Assembly: GCF_030165005.1 (NCBI RefSeq)
Contig: NZ_JASNNW010000013.1
Coordinates: 1-64,000, forward strand
Direction: 5' to 3'
From: Blastococcus capsensis
GTDB lineage: Bacteria; Actinomycetota; Actinomycetes; Mycobacteriales; Geodermatophilaceae
Length of the DNA: 64,000 nucleotides
The position numbers and the translations under genes are program-made. Shown here one piece after another: positions 6,973 to 12,104 of the stretch (position 1 is its first letter; the number at the start of each line of letters is the position of its first letter). The notes below the pieces were generated by a model. The model was not told the origin of the DNA, searched no databases, and saw only the letters and a program-made list of their open reading frames with translations.

Positions 6973-7139
6973 TGGTGCACGGGAACGCGGTGTTCCTCCT
7001 CGCCCGGGCCGGACATCGGTCGGTCCTGACCGGGCCCGCCCATGCGCGGACCGTCGGGGTGGTCGCACCCGTCCCGGTCGGCATCCGCGACCTGCGCGTC
7101 GATCCCGGACTCGCCGGGGACGGGTCCTGGCGGCGATGA
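6972..7139 (+). CDS. Possible small coupled ORF (55 residues)
   Basis: An ATG overlaps the stop of the upstream membrane-protein gene (TGATG at 6970-6974). The 55-codon frame ends in TGA that overlaps the ATG of the downstream TVP38-type gene (ATGA at 7136-7139). Exact coupling at both ends is unlikely to be accidental, but the product is arginine- and glycine-rich with no recognisable fold, so it may be only a translational bridge. Low confidence. Confidence 0.3.
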   Translation: MVHGNAVFLLARAGHRSVLTGPAHARTVGVVAPVPVGIRDLRVDPGLAGDGSWRR

Positions 7140-7873
7140 GCACCCACATCGGTCCGTCACCGGACCGGCCCGTCGAGGACGAGGGGCGACGTCTCGTGTG
7201 GGGCCGGCTGACCCTGCTGGTGCTCGTGGTCACGCTGGGGGCGGTGGTCGCGGCGCTGGTCGGATTGCCCGATGCGGAGCAGTTGCGGGCGGACGTCGCC
7301 GCGATGGGGCGGGCGGCGCCTGCGCTGTTCATCCTGCTGTACGCCGTGGCGACCCTGGCGCCGCTGCCGAAGAACGTGCTCAGCGCGGCGGCCGGTCTGC
7401 TGTTCGGACTCGTCGAGGGGCTCGTGGTCGTCCTGCTGGGCGCGCTGCTGGGTGCGCTGGCCGCCTTCGCGCTGGGACGGGCGCTGGGCCGGGATGCGGT
7501 CGAACGACTCACCGGCGCCCGGGTGGCCCGCGTCGATGCGCTGCTCGGCCGGTATGGACTGCTGGCGGTTCTGGGGGTCCGACTGGTGCCGGTGCTGCCC
7601 TTCACCGCGATCAACTACGCCGCCGGGCTGACCGCCGTCCGTATCCGTGACTACGTGATCGGCACCGCCCTCGGGATCATCCCGGGCACGGTCGCCTACG
7701 TCGCGCTCGGCGCGTACGGCACGTCACCCGGATCATGGCCGTTCGTCGTAGCCGTCCTGGCCCTCGTCGTGCTGACCGCCGGAGGTGCGGTCGCCGCGCG
7801 CCGCTACCGCCGCCGCGGGAGGGTGCCGGAGTCGCGAGGACATCTCCGGCGCCGTGCCGGAGGTCGTCGCTGA
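7136..7873 (+). CDS. TVP38/TMEM64 family membrane protein
   Basis: The 245-residue protein has about six hydrophobic segments. It also has the signature SNARE-associated/DedA-like core: the segment around PLPKNVLSAAAGLLFG, then GRALGRDAVERL, the loop RVDALLGRYGLLAVLGVRLVPVLPF, and AINYAAGLTAV. TVP38/DedA proteins are implicated in lipid scrambling or membrane homeostasis at the cytoplasmic membrane. The ATG at 7136 gives a normal family length. It is probably co-transcribed with the genes upstream. The C-terminus is Arg-rich, which suggests a cytoplasmic tail. Confidence 0.85.
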   Translation: MSTHIGPSPDRPVEDEGRRLVWGRLTLLVLVVTLGAVVAALVGLPDAEQLRADVAAMGRAAPALFILLYAVATLAPLPKNVLSAAAGLLFGLVEGLVVVLLGALLGALAAFALGRALGRDAVERLTGARVARVDALLGRYGLLAVLGVRLVPVLPFTAINYAAGLTAVRIRDYVIGTALGIIPGTVAYVALGAYGTSPGSWPFVVAVLALVVLTAGGAVAARRYRRRGRVPESRGHLRRRAGGRR

Positions 7874-8000
7874 CCGTTCGGCGGGCGGCGAGCTCGGCCC
7901 GCTGCCGCGGCGCGGTAAGCATCGGTTCCATCCGGCCGACACGGGTAACGGGTCGCCGTCCGCCTTTCGGGGACACACCCGTCATGAGCCGGGAGACAGC

Positions 8001-8798
8001 ATGAGCGAATACAGGTACCAGCACTTCCACGCCGGCCTGCTCGTCGAGGACCGTGGCTTCCTGGGCGGGATCGAGCCCGGTGGCCGGTTCCCGGACTTCG
8101 ACCTGCCCACGGTCAACGGTGAACGAGCCACCAGCCGGGAGCTGATCGGCGAGAAGCCCCTGCTGGTCTACTTCGGTTCGGTCACCTAGCCCATGACCGC
8201 CAGCGCCGGTCCGGCGCTGCAGCAGCTCTACGACGAGTTCGGGGACCGGGTCCGCTTCCTGACCCTCTACGTGCGCGAGGCCCATCCGGGTGACCGCTAC
8301 GTCCAACCGGGGGACATGGCGACCAAGATCGCGCACGCGCGGGCCTACGCGGAGCGCGACGGCATCCGCTGGCCGGTGGCCGTCGACGACGTCGACGGGA
8401 CACTGCACCGCCGGCTCGACGACAAGCCCGATGCCGCCTATCTCATCGGCGCCGACGGCAGCGTGCTGTTCCGCGGGCTGTGGGCCAACGAGCACGAACA
8501 CCTGCGGGCGGCCCTCCAAGCCGCGGCCGACGGGCACCCGGGCCCGATCGGGCAGTCCGAGGCCAAGGGCCGGGCCCTGCTGCGCGGCACCGGCATGATG
8601 TGGCAGACGCTGAGCGCGGCCGGCCCGGTCGCGCTGCGGGACGTGGCCCGGCAGGCGCCGCCGATGTGGCTGTCGGCCCGGCTGGCGCATCTCGCACATC
8701 CGCTGCCCCCGCTGGCTCGTGGAGCGATCGGGACCGCACTGCCGATGGTCGCCATGATGGGTGGTGCACTCGCCTGGCGGCGCCGCCGGCGCACGTAG
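8001..8798 (+). CDS. Deiodinase-like thioredoxin-fold protein with in-frame TAG, probable UAG-encoded selenoprotein
   Basis: The frame starts at ATG 8001 after GGGAG and runs to TAG 8796-8798 with one internal TAG at 8187-8189 (codon 63). Reading through it gives 265 residues. The N-terminal part has GGRFPDFDLPTVNG and the strand LLVYFGSVT, then TAG, then PMTASAG. The C-terminal part has RVRFLTLYVREAHPGDRY and DAAYLIGADGSVLFRG. This is the fold of iodothyronine-deiodinase-like redoxins, where the residue after FGSxT is the catalytic Cys or Sec. A GC stem with a GGTC loop follows exactly 18 nt downstream. C-terminally there is a hydrophobic stretch ending in five arginines, suggesting a membrane tail anchor. 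UAG as Sec is reported for this bacterial family. The alternative is a nonsense-broken pseudogene, which the intact downstream frame and the hairpin argue against. The physiological substrate is unknown; deiodination itself is not implied. Confidence 0.8.
8187..8219 (+). promoter_or_regulatory. TAG codon plus SECIS-like hairpin
   Basis: TAG at 8187-8189 is followed by a stem CAGCGCC (8201-8207) pairing with GGCGCTG (8213-8219), with a GGTCC loop at 8208-8212. The GGTC begins after 18 nt, the same spacing and the same loop bases as the E. coli fdhF SECIS as I recall it (TGA, 18 nt, GGTC). Bacterial SelB recognises such a loop placed directly downstream of the Sec codon. Confidence 0.7.
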
Positions 8799-9120: not shown

Positions 9121-9678
9121 ATGACCAGGTCCAGGAACGATCGACATGACACGGCGATGACGGCCGGCGGGGTGACGGCCGGCGGGGTGACGGCCGCTCC
9201 CGAGCCGATGGGCCGCCGCTTGCTGCGTGGCGCGATCGGCGGCATCGTCGCCGGCATCCCCTTCGCGGTGATCACGATGTGGTTCACCTCCACGACGGGC
9301 GGTGGCTGGCTGGCGCCGCTCAAGCTCATCTCGACGATCGTGCTGGGCGCCGACGCACTCCAGGCCGGCACCGCGCAGCCATGGGTCGGCGTCGCCGTGC
9401 ACATGGTGCTCTCCGCCCTCCTGGGCATGGCCTTCGCGCTCATCGCGCCGGCGCTGCGGACCAACGGCATCGCCGCGTTGGTCGGCACGGTCTACGGCGC
9501 GCTCCTCTACGTGGTCAACTTCCTGATCATCGGCAACACGATCCTGCCGCAGTTCCAGATGCCCAACCAGCCGTTCGAGGTGCTCACGCACATCGTCTTC
9601 GGCACGCTGCTGAGCTTCTTCTTCTACAGCTCGGGCGTGCGTCGGAACGAGCCCTTCCTCGCCACCGGCCGCCGGTGA
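9121..9678 (+). CDS. Membrane protein of unknown function
   Basis: A 185-residue protein. Its short polar N-terminus contains two copies of a five-residue unit (TAGGV) encoded by a 15-bp direct repeat at 9160-9189. It then has four hydrophobic spans: GAIGGIVAGIPFAVITMWF, HMVLSALLGMAFALIAPAL, IAALVGTVYGALLYVVNFLI and HIVFGTLLSFFFYS. The ATG at 9121 is preceded by GAGGACACGAG. The family resembles uncharacterised actinobacterial membrane proteins; no function can be given. It ends just before a strong terminator, so it is probably monocistronic. Confidence 0.75.
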   Translation: MTRSRNDRHDTAMTAGGVTAGGVTAAPEPMGRRLLRGAIGGIVAGIPFAVITMWFTSTTGGGWLAPLKLISTIVLGADALQAGTAQPWVGVAVHMVLSALLGMAFALIAPALRTNGIAALVGTVYGALLYVVNFLIIGNTILPQFQMPNQPFEVLTHIVFGTLLSFFFYSSGVRRNEPFLATGRR

Positions 9679-10597: not shown

Positions 10598-11269
10598 TCA
10601 GCCCAGCTGCTCGGCGAGGTCGGTCAGGCCGGTGGCGCGCCGCGACGGCGGGGTGAAGGACTCCGGGTAGGGCGTCCCGGCACGGTCGATCCACGCGGTG
10701 GCCAGCCCGGCTCGGGCGGCGCCGTCGATGTCCCACGGATGGACGGCCACCAAGAGCATCTCGGCCGGGTCGGTGCCGCAGGTGCGAGCGGCGTACTCGT
10801 AGGCGACGCGCGCCGGCTTCCAGGCGCCGGCGTCCTCCACCGACAGCAGCGCCTCGAACTCTCCGCGGATGCCGGCGCCGGTGAGCAGCGCCTCCGACAC
10901 CGAGGTGGAGCCGTTGGTCAGGGTGACCAGGCGCCGTCCCGACGCGCGCAGGGCCCGGACCCCCGCGGGCACGTCGGGGTGCACGGCTAGCTGGCTGAAC
11001 CCGCTCATGACGTGGTCGACGGCCGTGTCCAGGTCCCGGTCGAGATCCACGTCCCGCAGCAGCGTGCGCAGCCCGTCGACCCCGAGCTCGGCGAAGGGAC
11101 GGGAGGCGCCGGCGGCGGTGAGGGCGAACCCGTCGCGCAGCAGCGAGGCGAACCACAGCTTGGACAGATGGGCGGGTGCTCCGATGTCGGCGAACCGCTG
11201 GGCCATCGGGCTCATGTCGGAGAGGGTCTCGTTGACGTCGAAGACGATCACGGACGGCGATGCACTCAA
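10598..11269 (-). CDS. Haloacid dehalogenase type II-like HAD hydrolase
   Basis: The 223-residue protein has the full type II haloacid dehalogenase pattern: nucleophile Asp11 in VIVFDVNETLSD, motif II LTNGSTS, motif III Lys in AWKPARVAYEYA, and the acidic motif VAVHPWDIDGAARAGL. L-2-haloacid dehalogenases convert 2-haloalkanoic acids to 2-hydroxyacids through an aspartyl ester. The best start is TTG at 11269, seven bases after GGAG; a GTG six codons later is the alternative. It is the last gene of a four-gene minus-strand set with three other genes that also resemble dehalogenase or hydrolase families. Confidence 0.82.
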   Translation of the reverse strand: MSASPSVIVFDVNETLSDMSPMAQRFADIGAPAHLSKLWFASLLRDGFALTAAGASRPFAELGVDGLRTLLRDVDLDRDLDTAVDHVMSGFSQLAVHPDVPAGVRALRASGRRLVTLTNGSTSVSEALLTGAGIRGEFEALLSVEDAGAWKPARVAYEYAARTCGTDPAEMLLVAVHPWDIDGAARAGLATAWIDRAGTPYPESFTPPSRRATGLTDLAEQLG

Positions 11270-11333
11270 CGCGGGGCTCCTGGGGGTCGGTGAGGCGAGG
11301 GGCGGACGGCGGATCGGGGTCGCGGGCCGGCGC

Positions 11334-12104
11334 TCATCCGGCGTCCGTGCTGGAGGCCGCCAGCACCAGGACCCGGGGGAGGGTGGCGAGATAGGAGTCC
11401 AGCACCGCAGCCATGCCGGGGCGCGCATCGGTCAGCCCGGCCTGCTCCAGGGCGGCCGGCGTGGCGGCGACCCGCCACGGGAGTCGGCGTGCCGCCTCGG
11501 ACGCCCGCAGCTGCAGGTCGTCGGCGGCCGGCCGGCCGGCGGCGACCTGGGGACGCAGTGCCGCCCAGGCCGGTTCCAGCAGGCCCCGTCCGGCCAGCGT
11601 GCGCCAGATGCTGTTGACGATCGGCGTCTCCAGGGCGGCGCGGATCTCGCCGTAGAGATGGGGGGCCGGGGCGTCCTGCGGCGACGGCGCGGGGCTGCGC
11701 GGCTCCACCGGGCGGGGAGCGGGGGCGTCCCCCGGCGCGGACGGCACGTCCAGCTCGCCGTCCAGTGCCAGCCGCAGACCGGCGGTCAGGAGCAGCATCC
11801 GGCTCAGCGGACCGGCGAACTCCGCGAGCCCGGCCCGGACGTCGGCGTCGGCAGGCGGCTGCGCGAGCTCCCGCACCGCGGAGACCAACTGCTGGGCGGA
11901 GGAGCCGAACGAGGCGTCCGACAGCATTGGCGCGGCCTGCTCGTGGGCCAGCACGAGATATCCGGGGCACAGCGCCAGCGACTTGAACAGGCTCGGCACG
12001 AAGGGCATCCCGTCCAGCAGGTCGGCGTACACCCCGGCGACGACGCCCGTGGCCTCCGCCTCCTCCACCATGGGATAACCCACGAACCCGTCGTCACCGG
12101 CCAT
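11334..12104 (-). CDS. DehI-like halocarboxylic acid dehydrogenase family protein
   Basis: A 256-residue, largely helical protein made of two similar halves: GVVAGVYADLLDGMPFVPSLFKSLALCPGYL and TPIVNSIWRTLAGRGLLEPAWAALRP. The repeated Y/W-x-x-LA-x-x-P pattern resembles group I 2-haloacid dehalogenases (DehI), a pseudo-dimeric fold. The two halves are joined by a Pro/Ala-rich linker. Its ATG lies inside the end of the hydrolase gene (11-bp overlap), so it is translated with it. Family assignment is by pattern memory, so moderate; the catalytic Asp/Asn pair cannot be confirmed here. Confidence 0.6.
   Translation of the reverse strand: MAGDDGFVGYPMVEEAEATGVVAGVYADLLDGMPFVPSLFKSLALCPGYLVLAHEQAAPMLSDASFGSSAQQLVSAVRELAQPPADADVRAGLAEFAGPLSRMLLLTAGLRLALDGELDVPSAPGDAPAPRPVEPRSPAPSPQDAPAPHLYGEIRAALETPIVNSIWRTLAGRGLLEPAWAALRPQVAAGRPAADDLQLRASEAARRLPWRVAATPAALEQAGLTDARPGMAAVLDSYLATLPRVLVLAASSTDAG

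Follow-up and report, generated by a model that had tools for sequence, protein, structure and literature searches.

The window, namely the whole 64,000-nucleotide stretch of Blastococcus capsensis DNA that was analysed, contains what sequence-based analyses confirmed as one deiodinase-like gene with a TAG at its predicted catalytic codon. The gene and the features associated with it are:

7136–7873, + strand: VTT-domain (TVP38/DedA-like) membrane protein, upstream neighbour (PF09335, 101.1 bits)
7991–7996, + strand: GGGAGA, possible ribosome-binding site (by eye)
8001–8798, + strand: predicted deiodinase-like selenoprotein gene, 265 residues, selenocysteine (Sec) at 63 (read-through frame; PF00837, 46.6 bits, cut-off 27)
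8187–8189, + strand: catalytic-position TAG, predicted to be read as Sec (codon survey, 79 aligned relatives)
8201–8219, + strand: bSECIS-like hairpin CAGCGCCG-GTC-CGGCGCTG with its loop at +20 relative to the codon (local stem test)
8277–8291, + strand: EAHPG motif, residues 93–97, with EAHP in common with deiodinases (sequence alignment)
8718–8777 (approximate limits), + strand: hydrophobic C-terminal stretch, then RRRRR; may anchor the protein in the membrane (by eye)
8796–8798, + strand: TAG as ordinary stop of the same deiodinase-like gene (also in both orthologues)

The window gene starts with ATG at 8001, and its codon 63 is an in-frame TAG flanked by FGSVT and PMT (FGSVT[TAG]PMT), after which 202 sense codons follow up to the terminal TAG. 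Frame and motifs were found again as the first-pass annotation had described them, with the TAG after FGSVT and before PM and with YVREAHPGDR and LIGADGSVLFRG both in the read-through protein; that the terminal codon is also TAG was a point absent from that annotation. The read-through protein reaches the gathering score of Pfam T4_deiodinase (PF00837, E 3.5e-12), possesses the catalytic C/U followed by P and the EAHP motif by which membership of this family is recognized, and also matches AhpC-TSA of Pfam (26.3 bits, cut-off 26). The best sequence matches in PDB of a 44-sequence profile are the animal deiodinases DIO3 (4tr3, E 6.5e-19) and DIO2 (9h48, E 1.2e-15), with which the GSxTCP and EAHP stretches are aligned, a likeness at the sequence level only. 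The score for NCBIfam deiodinase_rel (NF038285) is 70.5 bits against a whole-protein curated cut-off of 250, so that the protein is not placed in that family. Judged from the T4_deiodinase, DIO3 and DIO2 matches and from the NF038285 score under the cut-off, the predicted protein is deiodinase-like rather than a proven deiodinase, and what its sequence predicts is a thioredoxin-fold enzyme with one selenolate. Animal iodothyronine deiodinases have a hydrophobic stretch at the N-terminus, whereas that of the bacterial window protein is C-terminal and is a possible membrane anchor; by eye, the C-terminus of a paralogue in the same genome resembles it, with a hydrophobic stretch and a basic tail.

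Relatives of the window gene were obtained by a genome scan, and the codon at the Sec site was surveyed in the best 80 of 184, one of which (L068) is half a gene. Among the 79 that could be aligned, the codon is TGC in 35, TGT in 23, TGA in 18, and TAG, GAT and TGG in one each; TAA is found in none of these 79. Cys is thus encoded in 58 and Cys or TGA in 76 of the 79, two others have GAT or TGG, and the single TAG belongs to the orthologue of Modestobacter caceresii. The alignment of homologues that the first-pass annotation had proposed therefore agrees with its statement that relatives have the catalytic Cys or Sec at codon 63. A search for tRNA-Sec in the genomes of the relatives, which covered 23 of the 80 loci, revealed agreement between codon and anticodon: genomes with TGA copies possess UCA tRNA-Sec in 16 of 17 cases, no tRNA-Sec being found in that of L144, and the two TAG-copy genomes searched both possess CUA tRNA-Sec. 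No tRNA-Sec was found in the genomes of L084 (Cys) and L089 (GAT). UCA tRNA-Sec is also present in the genomes of L069 (Streptomyces, Cys copy) and L137 (TGG), so Cys copies do not depend on loss of the Sec system. The TGG of L137 (L137:4044) stands opposite a TGA in L126, the gene closest to it in the tree; L137 retains a stem of 7 bp and, as noted, its genome has UCA tRNA-Sec, and the TGG is either an error or a sign that Sec was lost recently.

The B. capsensis genome (4.39 Mb, 99.95% complete) gives six matches to the tRNA-Sec model, of which one is a true tRNA-Sec with the anticodon CUA (C48:129165-129256, 65.3 bits), while the remaining five, one of them barely above the model cut-off, are Ser, Tyr or Leu tRNAs according to ARAGORN. 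The CUA tRNA-Sec gene is followed by selA and selB, with selD divergent, and all three genes score above their cut-offs. The first-pass annotation had asked for a CUA tRNA-Sec together with selA, selB and selD in the same genome, and had regarded missing selenium machinery, or a UCA tRNA-Sec alone, as evidence against its reading; all of the machinery is present, and the single tRNA-Sec is CUA. ARAGORN labels this CUA tRNA gene as tRNA-Pyl, and UAG might accordingly be read as pyrrolysine, or as a standard amino acid via a suppressor tRNA. This is highly improbable: no PylS is found over the cut-off in the genome (best 22.7 bits, cut-off 178), the CUA tRNA matches the tRNA-Sec model and adjoins selA-selB, and the relatives have Cys or TGA at the position in the proportion given above. 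In Geodermatophilaceae, tRNA-Sec is found in 108 of 112 genomes (E 1e-9), and the anticodons of all 110 tRNA-Sec genes of the family are CUA in 102 and UCA in 8. CUA tRNA-Sec is present in 101 of the 108 genomes; the seven with UCA only belong to three genera and are fragmented drafts. One genome of the family (G070) possesses UCA tRNA-Sec and a TGA copy of the deiodinase-like gene.

The M. caceresii orthologue is 85–86% identical to the window gene and has TAG at the same codon. Upstream of the TAG, dN/dS is 0.14 against M. caceresii and 0.26 against the copy of Blastococcus sp. DSM 46786; downstream, over the first 185 of the 202 codons, it is 0.13 and 0.19, respectively. These low values on both sides of the TAG argue against two separate proteins, the first ending at the TAG and the second beginning at ATG 8193. 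An ATG does lie one codon past the TAG, and 8193–8798 is listed as an ORF, but that Met is part of the TCPMT motif in one-piece Cys homologues and a split would divide the fold at the catalytic residue, which together with the purifying selection on both halves leaves this arrangement very little credence. Nor is it at all likely that the TAG is a nonsense mutation in a recent pseudogene, or a sequencing error. The gene is patchy, being found in 4 of 112 Geodermatophilaceae genomes including that of B. capsensis; one copy, that of DSM 46786, is split by inserted DNA, and M. caceresii has an apparent decayed second copy, all of which would suit a gene under decay. Against this stand the TAG kept in M. 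caceresii with its downstream part conserved, a TAG at the same codon of the paralogue and the Cys or TGA at this site in the relatives. A sporadic nonsense mutation with downstream decay in close relatives, which the first-pass annotation had named as counter-evidence, was looked for: the nearest intact relative retains TAG, and the DSM 46786 copy is broken at the Sec codon by inserted DNA, with no nonsense change. The two parts of the DSM 46786 orthologue (G004) lie on different contigs (L020, L023), the break being precisely at the Sec-codon CTAG, and the sequence joined to it there looks transposase-like by eye. The apparent second copy of M. caceresii (C79:51398, L024) lies about 16 kb away and is without the Sec region.

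The hairpin of the window gene has an 8-bp stem and a GUC loop and lies 12–30 nt after the TAG, i.e., just 3' of the Sec codon as is expected of a bSECIS, with SelB binding predicted. Because minimum-energy folding after the codon often favoured long chance hairpins, a local stem test was used instead; Rfam, at gathering scores, gave no match within the window. DSM 46786 has the same 8-bp stem and GTC loop, as does Pseudonocardia nigra, where the codon is TGA, and in M. caceresii the outer pair has changed from C-G to G-C via two synonymous changes. In three comparisons, 1, 0 and 1 of the 6 hairpin codons differ, and 75, 57 and 75 of the 179 codons elsewhere. Contiguous stems are 8, 8 and 8 bp in three TAG genes, 6.7 bp on average in the 18 TGA genes, two of which (L083 and L095) have stems of just 3 bp, and 3.5 bp on average with a maximum of 6 bp in 57 of the 58 Cys genes (TAG and TGA vs. 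Cys, Mann-Whitney p 1.5e-9, uncorrected for kinship). The comparison was made without L123 (the 58th Cys gene), L089 (GAT) and L137 (TGG), whose stems are 3, 4 and 7 bp, respectively. Compared with synonymous recodings, the hairpin gives p 0.05 for the window gene and p 0.22 for the paralogue; that of the window gene is marginal alone because the peptide SAGPAL favours a hairpin, and the weight therefore rests on the contrast of TAG and TGA genes with Cys genes. The other UAG genes of this genome have similar stems: 8 bp with loop GTC at +20 in two formate dehydrogenase (FDH) genes, and 7 bp with loop GTC at +22 in an AhpC gene. A scan for coding-like frames that are broken by TAG and have a stem of at least 6 bp behind it was run on the window and on three further stretches of this genome, one of them chosen for carrying the paralogue; it gave two matches, the window gene and the paralogue. 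The arrangement of TAG and stem in the window gene is not due to chance, because the scan found these two genes only, the TAG is kept in M. caceresii and dN/dS is low.

The paralogue (C14:413045-413584) is 37–39% identical to the window gene, and no orthologue of it was found among the other 111 family genomes, in which the matches are orthologues of the window gene. A tree of 80 rows, from which L068 and L123 were left out and in which the Sec column was masked, groups the window and M. caceresii genes with the TGA gene of P. nigra (100/99), and the paralogue with TGA genes of one Chloroflexota and one Armatimonadota genome (100/99). Its well-supported branches cannot be reconciled with fewer than two changes for TAG. 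The pseudogene, two-ORF and pyrrolysine readings were rejected on the codon survey, dN/dS, the tree and the PylS score. Each of the two TAG genes thus has TGA genes as neighbours in a clade of its own, so that a UGA gene was apparently converted to UAG on two occasions, by two base changes each, the direction being suggested by the tree neighbours. We lean slightly toward a scenario in which UAG-Sec bacteria acquire UGA-coded genes for selenoproteins from distantly related lineages, change the Sec codon to UAG and keep the hairpin, as would have happened here twice in one protein family from two UGA clades; a genome with both CUA and UCA tRNA-Sec, in which a gene broken by TGA lies close to the UCA tRNA, would then be an intermediate with both Sec codes. 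One genome (G058), the sole such case among the 108, has both anticodons. Its UCA tRNA-Sec (L061:1173-1263) is on a contig with many transposase-like frames by eye, and about 600 bases from it lies a CMD-like gene with TGA (1870–1872) and a hairpin; the genome also possesses CUA tRNA-Sec with selA-selB and a TAG FDH gene (L210; L323). As judged from these genes, G058 possibly harbours two Sec codes within one genome.

Genes encoding VTT-domain proteins adjoin both B. capsensis copies of the deiodinase-like gene. A general linkage to VTT genes was rejected, since VTT relatives were found at these two copies and at L086 among the 80 best loci of 184, with flanks of up to 4 kb, and five others. 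A CMD (AhpD-like) gene is found at 7 of the 80 loci (best 80 of 184), where it directly adjoins the deiodinase-like gene on the same strand in L091, L094, L097 and L101 and is on the opposite strand in L067, L068 and L077; on an M. vanbaalenii plasmid, the two genes overlap. From the CMD genes beside the deiodinase-like gene in these relatives, our guess is that the reductant is an AhpD-like protein. Within the window, an open frame at 21–659 (−), 7 kb upstream, is similar to the CMD protein of M. vanbaalenii (2e-18). A CMD/AhpD-like gene has TAG in place of its second Cys (CFY[TAG]L.AH) in all six carriers among 112 Geodermatophilaceae genomes (L239-L244; for example L056:11131-11793 (−), TAG at 11463), with a 7-bp hairpin at +25. 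In M. caceresii and DSM 46786 this gene and the deiodinase-like gene are only a few kb apart; it was not found in the B. capsensis genome and probably represents another UAG-Sec family. Downstream of the window gene, a membrane-protein-like frame without a Pfam match (9121–9678, +) has relatives that flank the deiodinase-like gene in L067, L070, L071 and L090. At 10598–12104 (−), also downstream, are a gene for a HAD hydrolase and one for a protein with a weak likeness to DehI (21.9 bits, cut-off 28.9), possibly a dehalogenation neighbourhood.

TAG also serves as an ordinary stop codon in this genome. With a crude filter, about 10 of 66 coding-like ORFs in the B. capsensis stretches end in TAG; none of the ten TAG stops is a Sec codon, and at least one of these ORFs is a frame antisense to selB. 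As both orthologues of the window gene, like the window gene itself, end in TAG too, UAG is recoded by context and not reassigned, so RF1 must compete for it. We propose that SelD would make selenophosphate, that SelA would convert Ser-tRNA to Sec-tRNA(CUA) and that SelB would carry the latter to the UAG when also bound to the hairpin just downstream, while the terminal UAG, presumably without the hairpin context, would be taken as a stop. The resulting selenolate would serve a deiodinase/peroxiredoxin-like enzyme as redox nucleophile, and the enzyme may be tethered to the membrane via its C-terminus; the AhpD-like CMD protein encoded next to it in some relatives would, if our guess is right, reduce it. 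Based on the codon with the Cys or TGA of relatives at its site, the CUA tRNA-Sec, the sel genes, the hairpin, the low dN/dS and the agreement between codon and anticodon, we estimate at roughly 94% the probability that UAG encodes the catalytic Sec of a deiodinase-like, thioredoxin-fold selenoprotein, as the first-pass annotation had suggested.

The use of UAG for Sec in Geodermatophilaceae is already published, and the deiodinase-like family is an addition to the known UAG set. One report describes CUA tRNA-Sec in this family and UAG in FDH, UGSC and the AhpC of B. saxobsidens DD2 (PMC5330540), and attributes the FDH and UGSC cases to Mukai et al. (2016), which fits the mention of UAG as Sec in Geodermatophilus and Blastococcus in the first-pass annotation. 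Non-UGA Sec codons or anticodons in nature are also mentioned in two other papers (PMC10778597, PMC7609411). The window gene resembles the UAG genes for FDH, UGSC and AhpC in its CUA tRNA-Sec, UAG Sec codon and downstream hairpin, and two FDH genes and one AhpC gene with UAG occur in its own genome as well. It differs from them in protein family, and from AhpC in its motif, FGSVTUPMT in the window protein vs. DWUPYCC in AhpC. A TAG AhpC gene with DWUPYCC is found in B. capsensis and in G008, which we take to be B. saxobsidens DD2 (codon context obtained for 4 of the 6 genomes with AhpC TAG hits), and the window gene has no match in G008 at E 1e-10. Its identity with the published DD2 AhpC was thus rejected on that assumption, as it is a separate gene with a different motif. 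Bacterial deiodinase-like selenoproteins are known from a Sargasso Sea survey (PMC1088965) and a review (PMC13188914), and, as described in these sources, share with the window protein the Pfam family PF00837, a catalytic-position Sec and a bacterial SECIS; they are described there as UGA-coded, whereas the window gene has UAG, and the UxxC motif given in the review differs from the PMT that follows U in the window protein. No report of a UAG-coded deiodinase-like protein was found in the literature searched by title and start of abstract, most subscription journals being outside its coverage.

The window gene would bring one more family into the known set of UAG-encoded selenoproteins and suggests a way in which foreign selenoprotein genes are taken up by a lineage whose Sec codon has changed. 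With UAG as Sec and UAG as stop in the same gene, it would offer a small natural system in which recoding that depends on a hairpin can be tested against RF1. Genes of this kind would be cut short or divided by gene callers that take UAG for a stop, and selenoprotein counts in Geodermatophilaceae, where 101 of the 108 genomes with a tRNA-Sec have the CUA form, are for this reason probably too low.
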